DNA of 64,000 nt from Paenibacillus roseus (GTDB lineage: Bacteria > Bacillota > Bacilli > Paenibacillales > Paenibacillaceae), in assembly GCF_016424485.1 (NCBI RefSeq), contig NZ_JAELUP010000103.1:310001-374000 (forward strand), read 5' to 3'. This document shows, piece after piece, positions 6,553-56,807 of the stretch; positions within the stretch are counted from its first letter, which is position 1; the number at the start of each line of letters is the position of its first letter. The notes beneath the pieces are model-generated. The model searched no databases, was not told the origin of the DNA, and was given only the letters and a program-made list of their open reading frames with translations. A program made the position numbers and the translations under genes.

Positions 6553-7794
6553 TTGAGCAGCAACGACATTATCGTCAGTTTGGACATCGGTACATCCAAG
6601 GTTCGTGCTATTATTGGTGAAGTGACGAACGGAGCCATTAATATTATTGGGGTTGGATCTGCCGACTCGGAGGGTATTCGCAAAGGAGCAATAGTAGATA
6701 TTGACCAGACCGTGCAATCCATCCGTAATGCTGTGGATCACGCGGAACGCATGGTAGGTATTCAAATAACCGATGTATACATGGGTATTCAGGGCAACCA
6801 TATCGGATTGCAGACCAATCATGGTGTAGTAGCGGTATCCAATGAGGATCGGGAAATCGGAGAAGAAGATATCGAACGTGTGCTTCAGGCAGCCAAGGTA
6901 GTAGCCTTGCCCCCGGAGCGTGAAATTATCGGACTTGTTCCTAAGCAGTTCCTGGTCGATGGACTTGATGGCATTTCAGACCCGCGCGGCATGATTGGCG
7001 TGCGCCTGGAAGTGGAAGCAACCGTAATTACCGGTGCCAAGACAGCAATACATAACCTGATCCGCTGCGTAGAGAAGGCGGACCTGCGTATTTCGGGCGT
7101 CATTCTGATGTCGCTTGCATCGGGGCAGATGGCTTTGACCAAGGATGAGAAGTCAATGGGAACCGTGCTTGTTGATATTGGAGCAGGCTCCTGTACGCTC
7201 GCTATTTTCGAGCAGGGCAATCTGGCTGCAACCTCGACATTGCCTATCGGCGGGGAGTATGTAACCAATGATATTTCCTACGGCTTGCGTACCCAGACAG
7301 AGCAGGCTGAGAAAATCAAGCTGAAATACGGATGTGCAATGATTGACGATGCAGCCGACGATCAGCGCTTTAAAGTAATGAGAATGGGCAGCAATGTGGA
7401 AAAAGAGTTTTCCCAAGTGGACTTGGCTAATATTATTGAGCCGCGGATGCAGGAAGTGTTTCACTTGGCGCTCCAAGAGGTTAAGCGTCTTGGCTTTGGT
7501 GATAAGGTAGGAGGGTACGTTCTTACTGGCGGTGCGGTATCTATGCCGGGCGTTCTCCAGTTGGCCCAGCTTGAGCTTCAATCCTCGGTTCGAATTGCGG
7601 TTCCCGACTATATTGGCGTGCGTGATCCGGCTTATACGAGCGGAGTCGGCATGATACAATATGTTTCCAAGTACATGAAAAGCCGTCCTGCTGGAGCATC
7701 GAAGAAAACGAGCAATCGGAAAGCCAATCCTTCTGCGCCCTCCAAACCCGGACTGTTTGAGCGGTTAAAAAATATGTTTAGCGAATTCATTTGA
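6553..7794 (+). CDS. ftsA: Cell division protein FtsA
   Basis: FtsA is an actin-like ATPase that tethers FtsZ to the membrane. The protein opens with [17 protein letters not shown] (phosphate 1 loop), contains [16 protein letters not shown] (phosphate 2) and [13 protein letters not shown] (adenosine loop), and ends with a short amphipathic helix, [14 protein letters not shown], the membrane-targeting sequence. CGGAGGTG at 6538-6545 points to TTG 6553 as start, giving 413 residues. An in-frame TTG at 6532 would place the ribosome site inside the gene. It lies 16 bases before ftsZ. Confidence 0.94.
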
Positions 7795-45647: not shown

Positions 45648-45858
45648 ATGTACGATGTACGCTATGACGATGAAGAGAAGTTTGGAAGGCAAAAGTACCT
45701 GTAGCGGGCGAAGGTTGTCTTAACAATTTCGCCCCTGACTGCGGGCTGCGCAGCCTCTATCCTTCAGCTTGAAAGAAAAATGACTTTGCGGAATGAAATG
45801 AATGAGACATTTCAGGGTACTCTAATGTTAAAGAAAGCAAGTATTGGAGGGACCGTCA

Positions 45859-46023
45859 GTGAAATGGATATATTGGGTAAGGTTGTATGATACCAAATTT
45901 CAGGCGGGCTGCCTGGTAAAGAGGATGGAGGATGACTGGTGGATATATGGATATAACAGCCCTAGCGAAGCTGAGGTATTCCGTTCCCGCAGAGGGCGGT
46001 ATGGAGTTCGCTTCAAGGTTTAG
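45859..46023 (+). CDS. Small ORF, 54 residues, unrecognised
   Basis: GTG 45859 follows GGAGGG and opens a 54-residue frame. It begins MKWIYWVRLYDTKFQAG and ends in the basic stretch RSRRGRYGVRFKV; it is rich in Trp, Tyr and Arg. There is no membrane helix or signal. I do not recognise the family. The good ribosome site and sensible composition favour a real gene. The tail overlaps a perfect GTTTAGGAAA / TTTCCTAAAC hairpin that is not followed by T residues. The preceding gap from 45648 shows nothing else. Confidence 0.5.
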   Translation: MKWIYWVRLYDTKFQAGCLVKRMEDDWWIYGYNSPSEAEVFRSRRGRYGVRFKV

Positions 46024-46069
46024 GAAAGGCGTTATTTCCTAAACCAAAAAAATTGGTAAAGAAAAAGGG

Positions 46070-46099
46070 TTGACTAAAGGTTCTTGAATATGGTATATT
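46070..46099 (+). promoter_or_regulatory. Promoter of the fMet/Ile tRNA genes
   Basis: TTGACT (46070-46075), an 18-base spacer and TATATT (46094-46099), 43 bases before the first tRNA gene. Confidence 0.7.
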
Positions 46100-46141
46100 T
46101 TATCTTGTCGCCATTATTGGATGACATTTTGAGGTAAACGA

Positions 46142-46218
<77 letters not shown>

Positions 46219-46250
46219 AACTTACAAGTCAATGTGGTCACCCTATATAA

Positions 46251-46327
46251 GGGCCCTTAGCTCAGTTGGTTAGAGCGGTCGGCTCATAACCGATTGGTCG
46301 GGGGTTCGAGTCCCTCAGGGCCCACCA
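46251..46327 (+). tRNA. tRNA with CAT anticodon, probably Ile2 (lysidine type)
   Basis: This is a 77-base cloverleaf, GGGCCCTTAGCTCAG...TGGGCCC-like acceptor with encoded CCA, anticodon CAT. The acceptor and D-arm sequence resembles the minor tRNA-Ile whose C34 is changed to lysidine, rather than elongator Met. That assignment rests on memory of related sequences and was not tested. Confidence 0.85.
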
Positions 46328-46471
46328 TTTGTTTAGATTCGCATGTGGTGGCTATTTTTTATTATAAATAGAGTGTGAGATTCTTATGGTCGGATTTAAG
46401 AGATAGTAAGAATAGCAATTATGTTTCGATAATCTATGTGTCGCTGATGAATGTTGACTTATGAAGCGTAT

Positions 46472-46525
46472 ACGCCTGGCTTTGATTGTTCGTCTGAGAG
46501 ACGCAGTCAAAGAGAGGCGTTTTTA
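46472..46525 (+). terminator. Terminator after the two tRNA genes
   Basis: ACGCCT..CTTTGA pairs with TCAAAG..AGGCGT and is followed by TTTT. The preceding stretch 46328-46471 shows no gene. Confidence 0.75.
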
Positions 46526-46584
46526 ATTTGATGAGAAATGCAGATTCATATAAATCGAAGCGGCAGAAAATTTTCATATGAGTA

Positions 46585-46614
46585 TTGACTGGAATCCCTA
46601 ATTTATGGTATGAT
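46585..46614 (+). promoter_or_regulatory. Promoter of tRNA-Leu
   Basis: TTGACT (46585-46590), an 18-base spacer and TATGAT (46609-46614), 63 bases before the tRNA. The layout copies that of the first tRNA promoter. Confidence 0.7.
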
Positions 46615-46677
46615 ATTTTTTGTTGACACGTTAAACGTGTTGCCAAGCACAACCATAATGTGCTGCATTCACATTAT

Positions 46678-46766
46678 GCCGGGGTGGCGGAATTGGCAGA
46701 CGCACAGGACTTAAAATCCTGCGGTAGGTGACTACCGTACCGGTTCGATCCCGGTCCTCGGCACCA
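46678..46766 (+). tRNA. tRNA-Leu (TAA)
   Basis: This is an 89-base class II tRNA with acceptor GCCGGGG and anticodon TAA at 46712-46714. A long variable arm (GGTAGGTGACTACC) precedes the T arm GGTTCGATCC, and CCA is encoded. It marks the left edge of the AT-rich island. Confidence 0.95.
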
Positions 46767-46788
46767 CTTATATGAATGAAATTAAGAG

Positions 46789-46820
46789 GTTTCAGCTCAT
46801 GTGGGCTGGGGCTTTTTTTT
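46789..46820 (+). terminator. Terminator after tRNA-Leu
   Basis: TTCAGCTC pairs with GGGCTGGG across ATGT, then eight T residues. Confidence 0.75.
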
Positions 46821-46906
46821 GTTTATGGGATGGTTTGGCTAATCGTGGTCGAATTTAATGGCAGTGAGCAATATCAAAGTGCAACAACATTTGATAGAAG
46901 TAAAGG

Positions 46907-46935
46907 TTGACAAGAGAATCCCACAGTGCTAATAT
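46907..46935 (+). promoter_or_regulatory. Promoter of the island's exporter gene
   Basis: TTGACA (46907-46912), a 17-base spacer and TAATAT (46930-46935). A leader of about 240 bases follows. It contains only a 45-codon frame without a ribosome site (47013-47150) and is otherwise featureless. Confidence 0.75.
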
Positions 46936-47178
46936 GTGCATATATTTTCCATTTAAGAAGTTTGTTAGTATAAATAGCGTAATAACTACCATCTATTGTC
47001 ACACATCAAAAAATGAACCCGTTTCTCAGGTGGCAACAATTTGACGAATATCTGCTGCTTGGGCTATTTCTTTCAAAGCAATCAAGTTCCACGAGCATGG
47101 ATTCGGAAGCTGAACCATTAAAGATTAAAAGAGATGAAAAAACCAACTAACTGCCATTATTAAAAAAAGGAGATATGT

Positions 47179-48543
47179 ATGATAAAAGGAAAACACTACG
47201 AAAAATTTCTTATTATAACGATTGGAATTTCGGTATTTGCAGGGGTAATGAGCACATCAATGATTACAATTGCCTTTCCAGATTTAGTTTTTGATTTTAA
47301 AATTGACTATTCTACATTGCAAATTAGAAACATCCTATTCTTTTCATTTTTCGCTGCTGGCTTACCGTTATTCGGTTCAATAGCGGATCGGGTGGGACCA
47401 AAAAAATTAGTTCAATTCGGATTAACTTTGTTTATTTTATCTAATATCGTTAGTGGTTTCTCAATTAATTGGGCAATATTCCTGGTAGCCCAATCATTAC
47501 AGGCTATTTCTGATTCTATGATCGTACCAGCATTAGTACTACTAATTAGACAGTCATTTAAAGATGAGAAAATAGGATGGGCTTTTGGCTGGTTTTCCGC
47601 TACTCTAGCTTCTGCCACACTAATAGGACCGGCACTGGGGGGAGGAATTGTTGAATATACTTCTTGGAGGTATATCTTTTTGGCCTTGACACTCTTTTCA
47701 CTGGTTTCTCTAATGCTGGGTACTTTGATTTTACCGAAAGACGGAAAACGAAATCGAAATAAACAAATTCCGTTCATGAATACAGTTTCATTAGTTTTAT
47801 TTCTTTGTTTTTTTCAATTTTCTCTAGTAGCAAGTTCCTCAATATTTTTAACAGTTAGTCTGGTGGTAGCACTTCTTTCTTTATCGATGCTACTATTTCT
47901 TGAAACAAGAAATAAAGTAAATAAAATATTTCCAGCAGGTGCTTTTAATAATAAAATTTTTGTTGTTTCATTAATACGCGTATTTCTATTGTTTTTGGTA
48001 AGCAACGCTATGATTTTGATTATTCCTAGTTTAATGAGGGATCATTTTGGATTAAGTCCTGATGTGATTGGATTAATCATTATTATAGAATCTATAATAG
48101 CCATATCATTGGCCGGATTTGCTGGGAAATTAGCTGATTTAAATGCATTGAAAACAATGACTTTTGGATTCATACCGATCTTGTCGGGACTGGTTTTATT
48201 ACAACTAACCAGCAATATAAATATTAATCCCATCATATTGTTTGTATTGTTCTTTTTATGTATCGGCTTGGGCTCGACTTTTGCATCCCCTGCTCTAAAT
48301 AAAATTGCAATGTTATCTGTTCCTAAAGAGGAAACGGGTTCTTACATGGGACTCTTTCAAATGATTCAATTTGGAACGGGAGCATTTGCATCTGGAATAA
48401 TTGGATTACTGGTAAGCGGTGGCACTTCGACATTAGAAATACGAGAGTTGCGTAGTGTCTTTGGCGTCGCTATTTTTCTTATCATATCCGCAGTACTTAC
48501 AACAATGGTTGATAAGAGATTTTTGAAAATTCAGAAAAGTTAG
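47179..48543 (+). CDS. MFS exporter with 14 membrane helices (DHA2/EmrB-QacA type)
   Basis: The 454-residue protein has 14 predicted hydrophobic helices. Its loop 2-3 motif, GSIADRVGPKKLVQFG, is characteristic of the major facilitator superfamily, and motif C (GPALGGGIVE) marks drug/H+ antiporters. AAAGGAG precedes ATG 47179. Codon use is AT-rich, unlike the pyr and mur genes but like the peptide-modification genes downstream. Placed first in the RiPP island, it is the likely export and self-resistance pump for the product; this is inferred from context. Confidence 0.88.
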   Translation: MIKGKHYEKFLIITIGISVFAGVMSTSMITIAFPDLVFDFKIDYSTLQIRNILFFSFFAAGLPLFGSIADRVGPKKLVQFGLTLFILSNIVSGFSINWAIFLVAQSLQAISDSMIVPALVLLIRQSFKDEKIGWAFGWFSATLASATLIGPALGGGIVEYTSWRYIFLALTLFSLVSLMLGTLILPKDGKRNRNKQIPFMNTVSLVLFLCFFQFSLVASSSIFLTVSLVVALLSLSMLLFLETRNKVNKIFPAGAFNNKIFVVSLIRVFLLFLVSNAMILIIPSLMRDHFGLSPDVIGLIIIIESIIAISLAGFAGKLADLNALKTMTFGFIPILSGLVLLQLTSNININPIILFVLFFLCIGLGSTFASPALNKIAMLSVPKEETGSYMGLFQMIQFGTGAFASGIIGLLVSGGTSTLEIRELRSVFGVAIFLIISAVLTTMVDKRFLKIQKS

Positions 48544-48552
48544 ACAAATCTA

Positions 48553-48581
48553 TTGACAATGATATAATAAAGACCTATTAT
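48553..48581 (+). promoter_or_regulatory. Promoter of the precursor peptide gene
   Basis: TTGACA (48553-48558), a 17-base spacer and TATTAT (48576-48581), just after the exporter stop. Confidence 0.75.
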
Positions 48582-48586
48582 GTAAA

Positions 48587-48613
48587 TATATTACACATAT
48601 TTTGTGTAGTATA
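48587..48613. promoter_or_regulatory. Operator-like dyad at the precursor transcription start
   Basis: TATATTACACA and TGTGTAGTATA are inverted copies (one mismatch) around a 5-base centre. The dyad covers the expected +1 region and ends 8 bases before the ribosome site, so it could bind a repressor or form a 5' RNA hairpin. No regulator gene is seen in the island. Confidence 0.5.
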
Positions 48614-48636
48614 ATTAGACAAAGGAGGTGGATATT

Positions 48637-48759
48637 ATGTCAAAAGAGCTGGAAGAGTTAGAAATCATTGAGGCTAGGGAGCTAGAGGTAGGAAATGCAT
48701 TTCATGCTTTTAGATTTAGTGTAGCTTCTCAAGAAGACATTTCTGATAAAGAAGAATAA
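48637..48759 (+). CDS. RiPP precursor peptide, 40 residues, Phe-Arg-Phe core (proposed)
   Basis: AAAGGAGGTG at 48621-48630 precedes ATG 48637. The 40-residue product has an acidic leader of Glu and Leu repeats (KELEELEIIEARELEVGN). A short aromatic segment AFHAFRFSV follows (residues 21-29), then a polar acidic tail, SQEDISDKEE. F25-R26-F27 (48709-48717) is the only F-R-F. It has its own promoter, a strong hairpin behind it, and modification genes downstream. I infer that F-R-F is the core from which ortho-Tyr, ornithine and a biaryl bond are made. F22 and H23 could also be modified. It was absent from the supplied ORFs because of its length. Confidence 0.85.
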   Translation: MSKELEELEIIEARELEVGNAFHAFRFSVASQEDISDKEE

Positions 48760-48771
48760 GCTTGTAAAGAC

Positions 48772-48809
48772 AAAAGTGCTACTACTATAAATTAAGTAGT
48801 AGCACTTTT
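48772..48809 (+). terminator. Attenuating terminator between precursor and enzyme genes
   Basis: AAAAGTGCTACTACT (48772-48786) and AGTAGTAGCACTTTT (48795-48809) form a perfect 15-bp stem with an 8-base loop. The T run is the stem's own TTTT plus ATTA, so read-through is likely. This would give much precursor mRNA and less enzyme mRNA. Confidence 0.75.
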
Positions 48810-48814
48810 ATTAA

Positions 48815-49242
48815 CTCAACGTCCACTGCTTGAAATTGGGAAAGAACGTTTATCGATTCCATCCGTGATTCCATTGATGGTAGAATGATGTGATCTGAAA
48901 ACCCCGAAGTCAACCGTAATGTTTATCTGCCCAGCCCATCGTGAGTATGAGAAAGCCCTAGAGCCGCTCCTGTAGCTTTAAAGCGTACGAGCATACCTTC
49001 GCTCAGTTTTACGTTCAAACATCCAATCATCAAAGCTGAACACTGTCTCGCATGAATCAGAGGTCAGGTGCTCCTGTGATAAACGCTCTCGAAGCGAAAC
49101 GTGCGAGAAAGCGGCGTTATACAACAGAAATAGGATTCGGAACAAGACCGCGCAGGTGAAGCCGAATTTATTCATAAAGCTCGCGTTATTCAGATGCTTG
49201 AGGGAGTTGAGTTGTTAATTTTAGTAATGAAGAGGAAGAACT
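48815..49242. other. Non-coding or decayed segment inside the island
   Basis: This stretch is noticeably more GC-rich than the genes on both sides. It holds a leftward 65-codon frame (48978-49175, beginning MNKFGFTCAVLFRILFLLY) without a clear ribosome site. No promoter or complete gene is seen. It may be a remnant of an inserted gene or transposase; I could not match it to a family. Confidence 0.35.
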
Positions 49243-51147
49243 ATGAAAAAAGATATTTTATTAATCTTTCCACCATTAACTGAAGCAAGACTATTCCCTT
49301 ATTTAAGCTTACCTATGCTAACCTCGTTTTTAAAAGCCAATAGCATAGATGTTGCACAAAAGGACTTAAATATTGATCTTGCTCATTCTTTATTTACTAG
49401 CAATAATCTTTTAAACTATATTGAAAATAATAAGAGTAAGCAATCTTTGAGGTTTATCTATAGAAATGAATTAGCTAAGTATTTATTAAAATATAAAGAT
49501 GAGATAGATAACTTGGTATTCAATAAAGAACCCGATAACCATGTGAATGATAAAAGTTCTAGAGCAGTGAGATTCGCAAAAAACGGTGTAGAATTATTAT
49601 TGGAAGATTCTATACTGAAAAAGGATTTCTTTACTGTAGAAGATATGATTGAAGAAGCTCAGAACTTTACAACGAATAATGATAACGATTTCGGAGTAAG
49701 ACAGCTTTATACACTTACAAAACAGTATGTTGAAGATAATAAACCAAAAGTTGTAGGTTTCTCGATTGCGTATTATAGTCAAATTTTCCCTTCAATTATT
49801 ATAGCTAAATGGATAAAAGAGTTAGCGCCTTCTACATTTATTATTTTTGGCGGACAGCAAATAATGCTAAGGTCTAATCAAATTTATAAACAGTCTTCAA
49901 CGGTTTTTGTTGACGCTTTAGGTACAAGTGCAGGTGAAGAAACTTTAGTCAAGTTGGTTCAATATATTTATGGTCAAGCAGAGCAATCAGAAGTTCCCGA
50001 TATATTATGGGTAGATAATAAACTCTCAGCTCAATCATCTCAATCTCCAAAATCTAGTTATAAAATTACAGATGCAAAAGTTCCCGATTTTTCTGGATTG
50101 CCTTATAAAAAGTATTTAAGCGAGGAAATACACTTCTCTTTAATTACATGTATCGGATGCTATTGGGGTAAATGCATTTTTTGTTCATACGGAAATAGAT
50201 CCAGGAAGAACTCTTCATACCAACAAAAAACTGCTGAACAAATAGCAAAAGAATGTGAGGCCATAATAAATACATATGGTGTACATAGAATTAATTTTGT
50301 AGATGAAAACACGAATTTAAAATTAGTTGTCAAAGCTGTTCAATTATTAAATAAAAAAGGCGTTTATATTAAATTCAGCACTAGAAATAGATTAGAGGAT
50401 TTATTGTTAGATAAAGCATTTTGTCAGGAATTAAAAAGGCTTGGTTGCATCCTTATGTCATGTGGATACGAGACGAACTCTCAAAGAATCCTTGATCTAT
50501 TAAATAAAGGAGTTAACTCTGCTAATTATCAACAAATAATAGACAACTTAGACGAAGCAGGTATCCCCCTCAGGCTTTCATTAATGGGAGGGCTTCCTGA
50601 TGAGACTCCAGAGGAAGTAAAAGAGTCTGAACTTTTTCTAAGAAAAAATGCTTCAAAAATAGGAATAGATGTAATGCAAATGTTAGTTGCAGAACCAAAT
50701 ACGTTTTTAACAGACGATCCCATGAAATATAAATTATATGTCAATAAAGATAAGCGGGAATTGAGAGGCAATAAACTTCTGAATTATGGTATGGGTAGAA
50801 TGGGGTCCCATTTTGAATACACAGATGGAGATACTTTTGATCCTAGATTGAACAGATTTATAGAAATGTTCAATAACATAAACCCGCAAAAAAATGATGA
50901 AATACCTCCTCAAAAAAGAGGTGCAGATAAATCTTTAACAAAGACTGAACTAAGCATAAATCCATGGGTTGTATTTCATTCTACTCAGGAAGGTTGGGTA
51001 GTTCTCGATCTTTTATGGGAAAAAATATATATAATACCATATAAGGGGTCTGAACAAGAATTTTTGACTTTAATTCATTCCAACCAAATAAATAAAATTA
51101 AAAAGTTTTTTATCGATAATGGATTAGTCAATTCTAATATGCATTAG
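49243..51147 (+). CDS. B12-binding-domain radical SAM enzyme (RiPP maturase)
   Basis: The 634-residue protein has an N-terminal cobalamin-binding-like Rossmann domain (KKDILLIFPPLTEARLFPYLSLP; later PKVVGFSIAYYSQIF and FIIFGGQQ). A radical SAM domain follows. Its cluster motif reads C303-IG-C306-YWGK-C311-IF-C314, giving CX4CX2C with an extra Cys; NFVDENTNLK, KFSTRNRLEDL and LRLSLMGGLPDETPEE come after it. A C-terminal extension (about 535-634) is unassigned. I propose it forms the aryl-aryl bond between modified phenylalanines, by analogy with biphenomycin-like clusters. Methyl transfer is the alternative. It is followed closely by the MNIO gene. Confidence 0.85.
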   Translation: MKKDILLIFPPLTEARLFPYLSLPMLTSFLKANSIDVAQKDLNIDLAHSLFTSNNLLNYIENNKSKQSLRFIYRNELAKYLLKYKDEIDNLVFNKEPDNHVNDKSSRAVRFAKNGVELLLEDSILKKDFFTVEDMIEEAQNFTTNNDNDFGVRQLYTLTKQYVEDNKPKVVGFSIAYYSQIFPSIIIAKWIKELAPSTFIIFGGQQIMLRSNQIYKQSSTVFVDALGTSAGEETLVKLVQYIYGQAEQSEVPDILWVDNKLSAQSSQSPKSSYKITDAKVPDFSGLPYKKYLSEEIHFSLITCIGCYWGKCIFCSYGNRSRKNSSYQQKTAEQIAKECEAIINTYGVHRINFVDENTNLKLVVKAVQLLNKKGVYIKFSTRNRLEDLLLDKAFCQELKRLGCILMSCGYETNSQRILDLLNKGVNSANYQQIIDNLDEAGIPLRLSLMGGLPDETPEEVKESELFLRKNASKIGIDVMQMLVAEPNTFLTDDPMKYKLYVNKDKRELRGNKLLNYGMGRMGSHFEYTDGDTFDPRLNRFIEMFNNINPQKNDEIPPQKRGADKSLTKTELSINPWVVFHSTQEGWVVLDLLWEKIYIIPYKGSEQEFLTLIHSNQINKIKKFFIDNGLVNSNMH

Positions 51148-51156
51148 GAGGCAGAT

Positions 51157-52119
51157 ATGAAAACTAAGGATACAATTAAGTTTCCAAACATTAGTAAGAA
51201 ATTAGGACTTGGTATGGGAATGGACTTACCTTGGGGGCAAGAGGTTGGATTTGTATCAACAAATCATGGTGATTCGATTACACCAAAAATGAAAATTTTT
51301 TTTAATTCTTATAAGGATGAATTTAATTATTTGTTTTTTGCATTTCAACCTAAAAACAGAAATTTTCTGAAAGCTGAGGAGTATTTTGAAGGATACGATA
51401 GTTTGTTTGCGGAAGTTCCTAATATTGAAGCTAGAGCATTCCATCAAACAATCTTAAATATGGGAGCAATGGAGGATTATCAAAAAGATCAGATAATTGA
51501 TTTCACGAACAAAATAGTAGAACGATATGATATCAAATGGATAGTAGAAGATTTAGGTTTATGGTCAATCAAAGGAAAGTCAGTACCATTTCCACTCCCG
51601 CCATATCTTACTGATGAAGGCTTGCAAGCATGCATTGATAATATCAACGTATACAAGGAGGGAATTAACGTACCAATTTCGGTGGAGTTTCCAGGATTCA
51701 CGGAAGGAACTAATTTCTTTATTGGAAGTATGAATGGGTTCGATTTTTTTCAAAAGTTAGTGGAGGAAACGAATGTACCCGTTACTCTGGATATCGGACA
51801 TATTTTAAGCTATCAATGGTTAATTGGGAATACACACGAAAAAATGTTCGACGGTTTGGAGAAGCTGCCTTTTGATAACTGTTTTGAATTTCATTTATCT
51901 GGATGTCAAATAATCAAAGGCAAGTTTCGCGATCTGCATCACGGCATACTATTAGATGAACAAATAGACTTATTGGAATATCTCCTCCCTAAATGTCCAA
52001 ATTTAAAGGCAATCACTTATGAGGACCCTCAATACACGGATGAAGGTATACTTATTCCCAAGTCACAAAAAAATTACCAAAGAATGAAGGAGATCGTTTC
52101 TAAATGGGAAAAACAATAA
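51157..52119 (+). CDS. DUF692/MNIO-family multinuclear non-heme iron oxidase
   Basis: MNIO enzymes (relatives of MbnB and TglH) oxidise peptide side chains with two or three iron ions in a TIM barrel. The 320-residue protein shows the expected metal-site candidates: H37 in STNHGDS, E131 in VEDLGLW, E177 in SVEFPG, D212 and H215 in TLDIGHILS, H246 in FEFHLSGC, D259 with H261/H262 in RDLHHG, and E289 in YEDP. AGGAGG precedes ATG 51157. It overlaps its partner gene by 16 bases. The proposed substrate is the two Phe of the precursor (ortho-hydroxylation), inferred from gene content. Confidence 0.86.
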   Translation: MKTKDTIKFPNISKKLGLGMGMDLPWGQEVGFVSTNHGDSITPKMKIFFNSYKDEFNYLFFAFQPKNRNFLKAEEYFEGYDSLFAEVPNIEARAFHQTILNMGAMEDYQKDQIIDFTNKIVERYDIKWIVEDLGLWSIKGKSVPFPLPPYLTDEGLQACIDNINVYKEGINVPISVEFPGFTEGTNFFIGSMNGFDFFQKLVEETNVPVTLDIGHILSYQWLIGNTHEKMFDGLEKLPFDNCFEFHLSGCQIIKGKFRDLHHGILLDEQIDLLEYLLPKCPNLKAITYEDPQYTDEGILIPKSQKNYQRMKEIVSKWEKQ

Positions 52120-52925
52120 ATGAGTTATATTCATTAGATGAGATACTTTATAAATTGTTACATGAAAGATCTTACAGACAGTTATTCCTTGAAGATAAAT
52201 TTTATGAGATGAATATATCAGAAGTCAATATTGAAAACTTGAAAACAATTGATAGGGAAGAACTAATGGCAACTGCCAAAACGATTAAATCCAATATCAT
52301 TTCTGGAAACATCGATTATAATGGGGGGTTAAAAAGTGCTTACCCGGGTGTTTTTTCAGAATTCAAAGAAAGTTCAATCGATATGGATGATTTGTTATAT
52401 GATTTTATTGAATCTATTTGGTTTCAGGACTATAAAGAAATCCCGTTTAGTGGGAGAGGTATTTGCATTGAGGAAGCCTTTTATCATTACATGTTAAGCA
52501 ATGAAAATTTCATAAATAGATCACCTTATAATACGCTATTATTGCAGCATGAATTTCTTAATGCGATTCACTCCATATTGGTTATTAACAAGAATCCTAA
52601 CTTTAGGATACATTCTCCACTCATCATTCATAATCGTTCTATTTCTTATTCGGTAGTAAAGTATCCAGGTAAAATCGTTTCAGCTTTAGAAAATAGTTTG
52701 AAGAAGTTTGAAACAGATGATGAAGTATTGTATGTATATGCTGCTACAAAAAAACATTTGATTAAAGGTCAAATAAGTGAACTGATTTCAGAAATCCTGA
52801 AAAACGAGTTGCTAATTCATAAAGCTGAAATCAGAAATTTATTAACAACAAAGTTTAACATAAACGAAGATCAATTAAATACTACCATTTTGAATATGGC
52901 CAAGTTGGGGTTATTAGATGGCTAA
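52104..52925 (+). CDS. MNIO partner protein (probable peptide-recognition subunit)
   Basis: MNIO enzymes generally need a second protein that binds the leader peptide. This 273-residue protein overlaps the MNIO gene by 16 bases. Its N-terminus, LDEILYKLLHERSYRQLFLEDKF followed by an IDREELMATAKTI helix, resembles the N-terminal helical region of known partners. The C-terminal 70 residues (EILKNELLIHKAEIRNLL ... ILNMAKLGLLDG) look like a winged-helix or RRE-like fold. I could not confirm the fold. It ends 8 bases inside the next gene. Confidence 0.65.
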   Translation: MGKTINELYSLDEILYKLLHERSYRQLFLEDKFYEMNISEVNIENLKTIDREELMATAKTIKSNIISGNIDYNGGLKSAYPGVFSEFKESSIDMDDLLYDFIESIWFQDYKEIPFSGRGICIEEAFYHYMLSNENFINRSPYNTLLLQHEFLNAIHSILVINKNPNFRIHSPLIIHNRSISYSVVKYPGKIVSALENSLKKFETDDEVLYVYAATKKHLIKGQISELISEILKNELLIHKAEIRNLLTTKFNINEDQLNTTILNMAKLGLLDG

Positions 52926-54174
52926 TAATATGATTTCCTTTAATGAACATGGTGAATTATTAAATTATTGGGTTAAAAAACAATATCAAAATGAATTCGT
53001 GATTTATTTTGACCAACACTTGGACTTTAAAAAAATTAGTGAAGAAAATCTGAAAATATTAAAAAGTTATTCCGAAAAAAATCAAAACATGAATGAATTA
53101 AATCGAGATGTGCCGTTTAGGGAATATGAAACCTATCCCTATGGCCTGGATAATTTTTTATATGCTGCAAAAGAATTGAATATTATTGATCATTTAATAT
53201 GGGTCTATCCGAATAATGATTATACTATTAATGATTTGCAAAAAGTATTGATTACTAATGTTTCATTGATCGCGGGGTTCAAGGAAGAAGTTTTAAGTTC
53301 TTTTGCAATTAATGAGTACTCCGTTGAGTTATCTGTTAACCATTTAAAAATCGAAATTACAAACCTTAAATATCTAAGTCATATAAAATTGAATAAGACT
53401 CCTTTAATAGATATTGACCTGGATTTTTTTTATAACAGTAATAAGCAACAGCTACATTTAGTCAAAGAATTTAAGGAATATTTCCTCTCTTTAGGGAAAG
53501 CGTGGAAAGATGATCCAACGATGACGTATTCTATTACTAGCGGATTTTTACCTGAAAAGTATAGTTACTTAGGTGAACAAATTGCAGATTTTTTTGAAAT
53601 GGATATTGTACATCACTCAAAATTACGAACAGAATCAAATTCCATAACAAAAATTTCTTATTTGCTAAATAATAATTCAACCTATTTAACTAGCGAAATT
53701 ATAGAAGAAGTTTGGGAAAAGGTACTCGTGTTTTATTCTGGGACAGGTTTGGGAGTTAAATCTTTGCTTTTTTCCCGAATTGGAAATTTGGAGTTAGCAA
53801 TTCAATACTATGATTTAGCCAAACAGAATAATGTGAATTACTTTTGGAGTGCCTATAACATAGGTTTAATATATATGAATCAAAAAAGGTATGCCTTAGC
53901 ATCGCACTGGTTTTTGCTAGCTGAAGGAAACTTAACAGATTCCATACAAACTCATAGTTTAATACTAAGAAGTATATGCGAACTAAAACAAGGTAATTTT
54001 TCAGAAAGTTTAGCTTTAGGAATTAAATGTGCCGATGAGATTGGAATAAGAGCAGAGCCTTACTTAATTATTGCTTTATCTTGTAAAGAACTAGGCTTGA
54101 TCAGAGAATATAAAAAAAATTATGTATTATATAAAACGTTTAAAAGCGATGGATTATCAGGAGTGAAATGTTAA
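52918..54174 (+). CDS. UPF0489 peptide-arginase-like protein with C-terminal TPR-like region
   Basis: The UPF0489 family has the arginase/deacetylase fold; the RiPP enzyme OspR of this family turns peptidyl Arg into ornithine. Metal-ligand motifs are present: FVIYFDQHLDF (D32, H34, D36) and LIDIDLDFFY (D165, D167, D169). Residues about 265-410 hold helix pairs such as FSRIGNLELAIQYYDLAKQ and NIGLIYMNQKRYALASHWF, typical of TPR repeats, which most family members lack. The only core Arg in the precursor is R26. The gene overlaps both neighbours, so translation is coupled. Confidence 0.78.
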   Translation: MANNMISFNEHGELLNYWVKKQYQNEFVIYFDQHLDFKKISEENLKILKSYSEKNQNMNELNRDVPFREYETYPYGLDNFLYAAKELNIIDHLIWVYPNNDYTINDLQKVLITNVSLIAGFKEEVLSSFAINEYSVELSVNHLKIEITNLKYLSHIKLNKTPLIDIDLDFFYNSNKQQLHLVKEFKEYFLSLGKAWKDDPTMTYSITSGFLPEKYSYLGEQIADFFEMDIVHHSKLRTESNSITKISYLLNNNSTYLTSEIIEEVWEKVLVFYSGTGLGVKSLLFSRIGNLELAIQYYDLAKQNNVNYFWSAYNIGLIYMNQKRYALASHWFLLAEGNLTDSIQTHSLILRSICELKQGNFSESLALGIKCADEIGIRAEPYLIIALSCKELGLIREYKKNYVLYKTFKSDGLSGVKC

Positions 54175-55328
54175 AACAAGATCTAAATCGTAATATCATA
54201 TGCAAATACAGTTCTTTAGAAAATGATTACCTCTTTTATACAACTGGAAATGCAAACTCTCTTTTGACTAAGGATAACCTTAAAGAACTGATTGATGTCT
54301 ACCGCGACCTGATTAGCCAATGTCTGTTTTCTTTCGAAAAATGGATATTTAAATATGAAATAACAATGATCTCTTCTTCTTATTTTTTATATCTTAGTAG
54401 TGGTGATGACTTTAAAAGAGACGAATTACACTTAATGATAAAAATAATAGTAGACGCTGTAGATAAATTCATTCCTGTAGTTTGGCAATCGAGTATTCAC
54501 AACTACTTGGATTGTAATCAACATTGGAGTGATATTCAAACAAAATTATATGAAGAGGTATATGCCGCTATTAATGGTACTAATCTTGCAATGGAGATTA
54601 ATGTTCCCATCATTTTAAATCAGGAATTATCTTCACAACTGGTACACGAAGCTTTTGGACATACTTCTGAAGCAGATAATTATATACAATATTGTGAAGG
54701 AAGCCAATTTCAACTGGGGCATACATGGGCAAATTATAAGTTAAACGTATATGATAATCCTTTGCTGTCAGGTTATAGAGGAAGCTATGAGTATGATCAT
54801 GAAGGAAATAAAGCAAAACCTACCCAGATTATTAAAAATGGCGTATGGAATGAATTGCTGTACGATAAGAAAACAGCAGAGCAGTTGGGAGTAAAGCATA
54901 GTTCAAATGCAAGAAGAACAATCTTTTCCAACATAATCATGCCTAGAATGTCAGTCATCTATTTAGAAGCAGGTGAATGTGATATTCAAGATATAATTTC
55001 AAATATTGAATATGGGGTATACTGTTTCGGCACATGGGGAGGAGGCTCATTAGGTCATAATTTCATAATTAGACCTTCATTCGGTAAATATATTAAAGGA
55101 GGTAAGATTACTAACGAAATAATAAGGAAATTTGACATTAAAGGTTCGAAATTTGATTTTATTTCTAGAATTGATAATGTCTCTAATGATTTAATGATGT
55201 TTGATCCTTATTTTGGATGTAACAAGAATGAAAAGTATGATTTACCGGTTTCGCAAGGCTCTCCAACTATTTCAGTTTCTTCATATCCCCTTATTCCTAT
55301 AAATGATGGAGGAAAAAATGGTAGATAG
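54168..55328 (+). CDS. TldD/PmbA-family metalloprotease
   Basis: TldD proteases degrade or trim modified peptides, for example the microcin B17 leader, usually as TldD/TldE pairs. The 386-residue protein has the zinc motif H160-EAFG-H165 with a nearby Glu (TSEAD). It also has the typical Gly-rich FGTWGGGSLGHNFIIRP stretch near residue 290. It is shorter than most TldD proteins, and no TldE partner is encoded here. It probably releases the mature macrocycle from leader and tail. ATG 54168 overlaps the previous stop by 7 bases. Confidence 0.85.
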   Translation: MLKQDLNRNIICKYSSLENDYLFYTTGNANSLLTKDNLKELIDVYRDLISQCLFSFEKWIFKYEITMISSSYFLYLSSGDDFKRDELHLMIKIIVDAVDKFIPVVWQSSIHNYLDCNQHWSDIQTKLYEEVYAAINGTNLAMEINVPIILNQELSSQLVHEAFGHTSEADNYIQYCEGSQFQLGHTWANYKLNVYDNPLLSGYRGSYEYDHEGNKAKPTQIIKNGVWNELLYDKKTAEQLGVKHSSNARRTIFSNIIMPRMSVIYLEAGECDIQDIISNIEYGVYCFGTWGGGSLGHNFIIRPSFGKYIKGGKITNEIIRKFDIKGSKFDFISRIDNVSNDLMMFDPYFGCNKNEKYDLPVSQGSPTISVSSYPLIPINDGGKNGR

Positions 55329-56016
55329 AAAGCACTATTCGGATATAAGTATAGATTATTTCTCTAAGTCCTATGCTGATAAAAAACCATTAATTATTGA
55401 AGGATTAATTGACAACTGGGAGTTTAAAACATATAAGTTGGAAACTCTTGATGAGAATTTCGGAGAGAAAGATATCATTATTCGTAAATCAGAAGGAAAA
55501 GATATAAACAAACCATATCAGATTAAAATGTCGAAATATATTCAAATGATTGAGAAAGGGAATAAAGATAAATGGTACTGTGATTGGCCATATTATTCAA
55601 TGGGAAATAAAGAAATCAGCTTATTGTACAATGTTCCAGCCTATTTTTCTGAAAAAACTATTAATCATGGTTATAAAATAGATGATAAGTTTAAATGGAT
55701 ATTTATAGGCTCAAAAGGGACAGGTACTCACCTGCACCAAGACTTTAAACAAACACATAACTGGCACGGAATCATTTTTGGTTGCAAAGAATGGCTTCTT
55801 ATATCTCCGGATCATTACAATGAAATCAAAAAAGAAGGTATCGAAATATCAGATGAATTGCTCGCCGATGCTTATTATAAAAACCTGATACAAAAAACGT
55901 TGTTACAACCAGGAGAAATATTATATACACCTAGAAATTGGTGGCATAGTGTGAAAAATCTTGAGAACACTTTTTCGATTAGTGAAAATTTTTGGTATGA
56001 AAGTGAAATAAGCTAA
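55318..56016 (+). CDS. JmjC/cupin_8 Fe(II)/2-oxoglutarate hydroxylase
   Basis: The 232-residue protein begins near residue 23 with KKPLIIEGLIDNW, the typical JmjC opening. Its iron triad is H140-Q-D142 in GTHLHQDF and H210 in PRNWWHSV. GCKEWLLISP and LLQPGEILYTP frame the double-stranded beta-helix. GGAGG at 55308-55312 favours ATG 55318; an ATG at 55303 lies inside the upstream gene without a site. Family members hydroxylate peptides or amino acids. A likely task here is hydroxylation of ornithine C4, or of a benzylic carbon, in the macrocycle. Confidence 0.85.
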   Translation: MVDRKHYSDISIDYFSKSYADKKPLIIEGLIDNWEFKTYKLETLDENFGEKDIIIRKSEGKDINKPYQIKMSKYIQMIEKGNKDKWYCDWPYYSMGNKEISLLYNVPAYFSEKTINHGYKIDDKFKWIFIGSKGTGTHLHQDFKQTHNWHGIIFGCKEWLLISPDHYNEIKKEGIEISDELLADAYYKNLIQKTLLQPGEILYTPRNWWHSVKNLENTFSISENFWYESEIS

Positions 56017-56108
56017 ACGATATAACTGCATGGATCATTTTAATACCGCCTCGCCTTGAATAGACTGATTCAACAGGAGGTTTGAGTAGGCAAGTTAATA
56101 GTCTGAAT

Positions 56109-56154
56109 GAAAGCAGCACCTTCTCTACTGGAGATATAGGTGCCTTTGCTTTTG
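56109..56154 (+). terminator. Terminator at the end of the RiPP operon
   Basis: AAAGCA-GCACC pairs with GGTGC-CTTTGCTTTT (a 3-base bulge in the right arm), then a few T residues. Beyond it, 56155-56440 contains no convincing gene; a hairpin GCAAAG/CTTTGC and short open frames only. Confidence 0.5.
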
Positions 56155-56440
56155 GCAGGTTAGTTTTTAGCAAAGAATGCTTTGCCATCGCCTACGGCGA
56201 TTCCGATGTTACCCATTAAACTTCATCTCTAAGCGAGCTTCCGAAGTGAATTACTAGCTCAACTCGACACTGCTTTAACAATAATGAATTGGTTACATGC
56301 TTAACAAGCCTACAAGAACTTTGAGGCTAATACATTGGTTGCGAGAAATGTGAAGCAAAGTGTTGCAACGGAGGTTAATAATTATAATGAGAAAAAATGA
56401 ATTGGAAAATAGAACGATCTAAGAGGACATAAGGGAAAAT

Positions 56441-56474: not shown

Positions 56475-56735
56475 TTAGAGGGGATTCTGCTCGATGATTT
56501 GCTGTTCGAAATCGGAAGCATAGTTGCTCATGCAGTTGCAGTAGTAATCTTTACGGCAAATCGGGCATGGCATATTGAGCAGGCGGTTAACGCCAATAAT
56601 TTTCCAATCCGGGTTTTTGCTGAAGAACAAGCGGCATTTAGCTTGATTGGTCAGCGTTACAACGAATTGATGCAAGCCATTCTCTTCATTGCGGTCAGAA
56701 GCGACGATTTCTTTTATAACCGGTTTAAAGGTCAT
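56475..56735 (-). CDS. Small protein with a CPxC...CxC cysteine cluster, unrecognised
   Basis: The 86-residue product starts at ATG 56735 behind AGGTGG on the minus strand; an in-frame TTG at 56753 is the alternative. Its first 55 residues look like a beta-rich domain (QFVVTLTNQAKCRLFFSKNPDW). After this comes CPICRKDYYCNCM, four closely spaced Cys that could bind zinc, and an acidic tail. The function is unknown. It is transcribed away from ung and has its own terminator. Confidence 0.65.
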   Translation of the reverse strand: MTFKPVIKEIVASDRNEENGLHQFVVTLTNQAKCRLFFSKNPDWKIIGVNRLLNMPCPICRKDYYCNCMSNYASDFEQQIIEQNPL

Positions 56736-56807
56736 ATTGTCCCACCTATTCAATTAGATTAACAAATGCTTAGTAAGCATAACTTTTTTCAGCTTATGTG
56801 TCAATAA

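Follow-up and report, generated by a model that had tools for sequence, protein, structure and literature searches.

The window, a stretch of 64,000 nucleotides from Paenibacillus roseus, contains a compact operon of eight intact plus-strand open reading frames (47179-56016 in its ORF listing) which, judging from the sequence, very probably is, like pbs and Ps_bip, an operon for a biphenomycin-type RiPP. Its genes encode, in this order, an MFS exporter, the precursor, a B12-radical SAM enzyme, an MNIO, the MNIO partner, an arginase with a TPR tail, a TldD-type protease and a JmjC/cupin protein (Table 1). The initial annotation had placed the cluster at 46907-56154; this span contains all the named genes but overshoots them slightly on both sides. 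Its description of an AT-rich and tightly overlapping gene set is borne out, as the G+C content is 0.30-0.35 across the operon versus about 0.50 around it, the radical SAM and MNIO genes are separated by 9 bp, and each gene from the MNIO onwards overlaps the next by 7-26 bp. The assignments of the exporter, radical SAM, MNIO, TldD and JmjC genes are all backed by Pfam matches.

Table 1. Features of the operon and its surroundings (positions in the window; L001 is the Peribacillus frigoritolerans RU293 locus and G003 the closest genus relative; percentages for L001 are amino acid identities).
Feature	Position	Strand	Evidence
Accessory insert carrying the cluster	46767..56429		Flanks (45792-46764 and from 56430) align 85-94% to G003
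MFS exporter, 454 aa	47179..48543	+	PF07690 1e-44; 49% to the L001 MFS protein in the same place
Precursor peptide (bipA/pbsA type), 40 aa	48637..48759	+	66% over 32 aa to the L001 precursor
Terminator/attenuator-like hairpin between precursor gene and enzyme genes	48769..48815	+	Fold z-score -5.5
B12-dependent radical SAM enzyme (BipD/PbsB type)	49243..51147	+	PF04055 (Radical_SAM) 1.5e-16; weak PF02310 (B12-binding) 0.0013; 52% to L001
MNIO (BipE/PbsC type)	51157..52119	+	PF05114 7.4e-14; 77% to L001
MNIO partner (BipF/PbsD type)	52104..52925	+	48% to the L001 partner
Peptide arginase with TPR tail (BipC/PbsE type)	52918..54174	+	32% full-length to L001; ligand motifs
TldD-type metalloprotease (BipI/PbsP type)	54168..55328	+	PF19289 (PmbA_TldD_3rd) 7.8e-39; profile match to TldD 5NJ5 1.8e-29; HEAFGH; 39% to L001
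JmjC/cupin hydroxylase (BipG/PbsQ type)	55303..56016	+	Cupin_8 1.4e-19; JmjC 1.9e-9; profile match to JMJD6 3.8e-19; 42% to L001

The pbs cluster of Peribacillus simplex BE23, reconstituted by Padhi et al. 2025 (JACS, PMC12257519), comprises FHAFRF precursors, the radical SAM enzyme PbsB, the MNIO PbsC with its RRE-containing partner PbsD, the TPR-containing arginase PbsE, the lone TldD-type PbsP and the cupin PbsQ, plus an MFS gene. The bip pathway was fully characterised by Strunk et al. 2025 (Angew. Chem., PMC12707348), with clusters from Streptomyces griseorubiginosus and Peribacillus simplex_D (Ps_bip), and more than 1,000 similar clusters were reported. The operon of the window shares with pbs the same eight functions in the order described, the FHAFRF motif, the TPR arginase, the lone TldD-type protein and the lack of BpmH/BipH. 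Moreover, the last two genes (TldD and cupin) overlap in both, the start of pbsQ being directly before the stop of pbsP (PMC12257519). On the other hand, pbs has four precursors versus one in the window, whose genome belongs to another family according to the search groups. Concerning bip, the window has a counterpart for each of BipA to BipG and for BipI, and BipH is missing, as it is in Ps_bip, which has three precursors versus the single one found here. The Streptomyces cluster differs more in its arrangement, with bipA first and then the MFS and arginase genes, a precursor ending in FRFRS, and BipH present. These likenesses to pbs and bip refer to the published descriptions, and the identities given here to Peribacillus orthologs that are known from their genes alone.

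The pathway is homologous to that described in the 2025 work, and the present operon is a further carrier of it and not a new system. The earlier suggestion that the JmjC protein, the TldD-type protease and the TPR-tailed arginase might be new to the class was wrong, since all three have been characterised in the pbs and bip clusters, and the cluster opens no new class. A literature search for biphenomycin with Paenibacillus found no report. What the operon adds is the occurrence of an intact biphenomycin-type cluster in a further lineage, to which it was probably transferred horizontally; its carrier could serve as an alternative producer of antibiotics whose yields are very low.

When genome contigs were scanned with the MNIO, L001 was the sole locus returned. 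As the gene-order comparison revealed, L001 has the same eight functions in identical order, with three precursor copies versus one in the window. Two loci from the bacterial family of L001 (L018 and L019) also share the gene order of L001 and the window; they carry three and five precursor copies, respectively, with slightly different followers. The MNIO and its partner resemble the Peribacillus pair even in the 16-bp overlap of their genes. Identity to the Peribacillus orthologs is only 32-45% for the arginase, the TldD-type protease and the JmjC protein.

The small precursor carries an FRF core in an FHAFRF context, which is the published precursor motif (PMC12257519). Its C-terminal part reads ...ELEVGNAFHAFRF-SVASQEDISDKEE and can be divided into a leader ending in ...EIIEARELEVGNAFHA, the core FRF and the follower SVASQEDISDKEE. 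The FHAFRF-coding pattern was found at one site in the 5.37-Mb genome, but this motif is not significant by itself, since the reversed control likewise gave one match. Unlike the motif alone, the 32 residues aligned with the L001 precursor (FHAFRF identical) in the same place of the same gene order are, on this alignment, significant. The precursor is present in one copy versus three to five in the Peribacillus loci, and its follower has 13 residues versus 7-8.

Directly 3' of the precursor gene there is a strong hairpin followed by a T-rich sequence. L001 presents a hairpin at the equivalent place (about 6998-7042, z-score -5.2), and the two hairpin sequences are unrelated. We infer that this element, as a likely partial terminator, probably controls how much precursor is made relative to the enzymes. 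The non-coding stretch at 48830-49190, about 360 bp long, has a host-like G+C content (0.45-0.52) within an operon of 0.30. No homologs of it were found in plasmids, and 100 genomes of the family gave one chance-level match. This interruption between the precursor and radical SAM genes, together with the single precursor copy, could be taken as a sign of a silent or decaying cluster from which no product is made. Such a state appears improbable, however, given eight intact ORFs with conserved catalytic residues and AAAGGAGGT directly before the precursor start; the Streptomyces producer is likewise described with a single bipA (PMC12707348).

Regarding the families that the initial annotation had proposed to check, profile matches were obtained for DUF692 (PF05114), TldD (as PF19289) and cupin_8, and for UPF0489 with the L001 ortholog of the arginase. 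The radical SAM enzyme has its cluster cysteines in GCYWGKCIFC, and they are conserved in its L001 counterpart (GCYWGRCTFC). Its best NCBIfam match is a RiPP C-methyltransferase model, far below the cut-off. This match would suit an MNIO/B12-radical SAM RiPP of different chemistry (e.g. C-methylation) that only resembles biphenomycin clusters, but such a reading is very hard to sustain against a 52% identity to the Peribacillus enzyme in a matching context and against the arginase and cupin genes, which have been reported only beside FHAFRF precursors (PMC12257519). The biphenomycin-type assignment is the one followed here.

The MNIO partner is expected, by analogy with PbsD, to be an RRE-containing protein; no Pfam profile matches it above the cut-off, and its AlphaFold model is of low confidence (pLDDT 51.3), with no meaningful fold match. 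For the arginase, the UPF0489 profile (PF12640) did not match the protein of the window itself, but it did match its L001 ortholog (2.6e-8, above the cut-off), with which the window protein aligns over its full length. A further match of this ortholog is to 8BRP, a peptide arginase of known structure (0.0027). Peptide arginases are described with the motifs DxHxD, EEH and DIDLD and six metal ligands (PMC12703449). The protein of the window presents DQHLD, NEHGE and DIDLD, so that the six ligands are kept and Asn replaces the first E of EEH; the ligand residues (EH, DQHLD, DxDLD) are invariant in four orthologs. The AlphaFold model of the arginase is weak (pLDDT 65.8), and the Foldseek matches listed are mostly TPR proteins, corresponding to the TPR tail. 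It is the sequence motifs that support an arginase-type metal geometry.

The TldD-type protease carries the HExxxH motif as HEAFGH and is the only PF19289 (TldD/PmbA) protein found in the genome; a search there for a TldE partner or another TldD gave none. In the JmjC protein the HxD motif and the distal histidine are conserved (HQD...H), and its sequence makes it the expected Orn hydroxylase. Furthermore, a BipH-type HExxH beta-hydroxylase was looked for with TIGR04267, a model that we take to cover BipH; there was no match in the genome and there is no such gene in the operon.

Homology, gene order and published reconstitutions agree with the biphenomycin-type pathway and with the job that the initial annotation had given to each enzyme. 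What the window itself shows is the homology, the gene order and the catalytic residues; the reactions we infer from the characterised clusters. The MNIO and its partner would convert both Phe residues of FRF into ortho-Tyr, and the arginase would convert the central Arg into Orn, whose side chain would be hydroxylated by the JmjC enzyme. The two ortho-Tyr rings would be C-C linked by the B12-radical SAM enzyme. The lone TldD-type protease would remove the leader and perhaps the follower too, and the product would be exported by the MFS protein, which is probably the product exporter and is also a candidate self-protection factor.

The mass computed for FRF after two ortho-hydroxylations, conversion of Arg into Orn, formation of one biaryl bond and hydroxylation of the Orn is 472.1958 Da, which is that of biphenomycin B and coincides with the 472.20 Da of the initial annotation. 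The corresponding m/z is 473.203 ([M+H]+), and C-terminally extended forms would appear at 560.235, 659.304 and so on. The expected end product, by analogy, would be biphenomycin B (472.196 Da) or its macrocycle with part of the follower. Since no BipH-type beta-hydroxylase was found, biphenomycin B is expected; P. simplex likewise has no BipH and makes this compound alone (PMC12707348).

The doubt about the C-terminal end comes from the published work. PbsP showed no cleavage at the C-terminal side in the experiments of Padhi et al. (PMC12257519), whereas BipI cut both ends in those of Strunk et al. (PMC12707348). Given this disagreement and a follower of 13 residues, the product may be longer: if the TldD-type protease cuts solely N-terminally of the macrocycle, it would release a peptide akin to biphenomycin C that is extended C-terminally by Ser-Val..., and the length of SVASQEDISDKEE compared with the followers of the Peribacillus loci would be in line with it. 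This mode of cutting is rather unlikely, as biphenomycin B is the sole product of the orthologous cluster in P. simplex, and precursors whose followers differ greatly were processed by BipI from either source (PMC12707348). The product is likewise doubtful as a new congener extended C-terminally by SVASQEDISDKEE residues, and biphenomycin B is the compound preferred here. The divergent arginase, TldD-type protease and JmjC protein, together with the long follower, could help to settle the published disagreement on C-terminal trimming.

Concerning its genomic setting, the insert is bordered by tRNA-Leu(taa) on one side and by a conserved gene (56475-56753, minus strand), followed by ung, on the other. 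In G003, about 2.5 kb of unrelated genes lie between the same flanks. Two other relatives (G006 and G007) also have different genes at this site, so that the cluster is regarded as an accessory insert in an interval that varies within the genus. Named by eye from their ORFs, the genes between tRNA-Leu(taa) and ung comprise a regulator and an MFS gene in G003; G007 has one gene resembling chemotaxis receptors and one resembling monooxygenases, and G006 has agr-like genes.

The cluster is rare in its family, being found in one of 396 genomes, and it was found in one of 398 sampled across the phylum and in three of 43 genomes of the family of L001. This patchy spread and the low G+C content make it likely that the cluster was acquired by horizontal transfer. 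A search for mobile carriers gave nothing but distant MNIOs on plasmids of Streptomyces and Piscinibacter, with none in phages or viral contigs. The tRNA-Leu end has no repeat that could be found within the island or at the right-hand border. G006 has, close to its full tRNA-Leu match, a second one that is partial (L014:3751-3831, 91% over 81 bp) and perhaps a trace of integration there.
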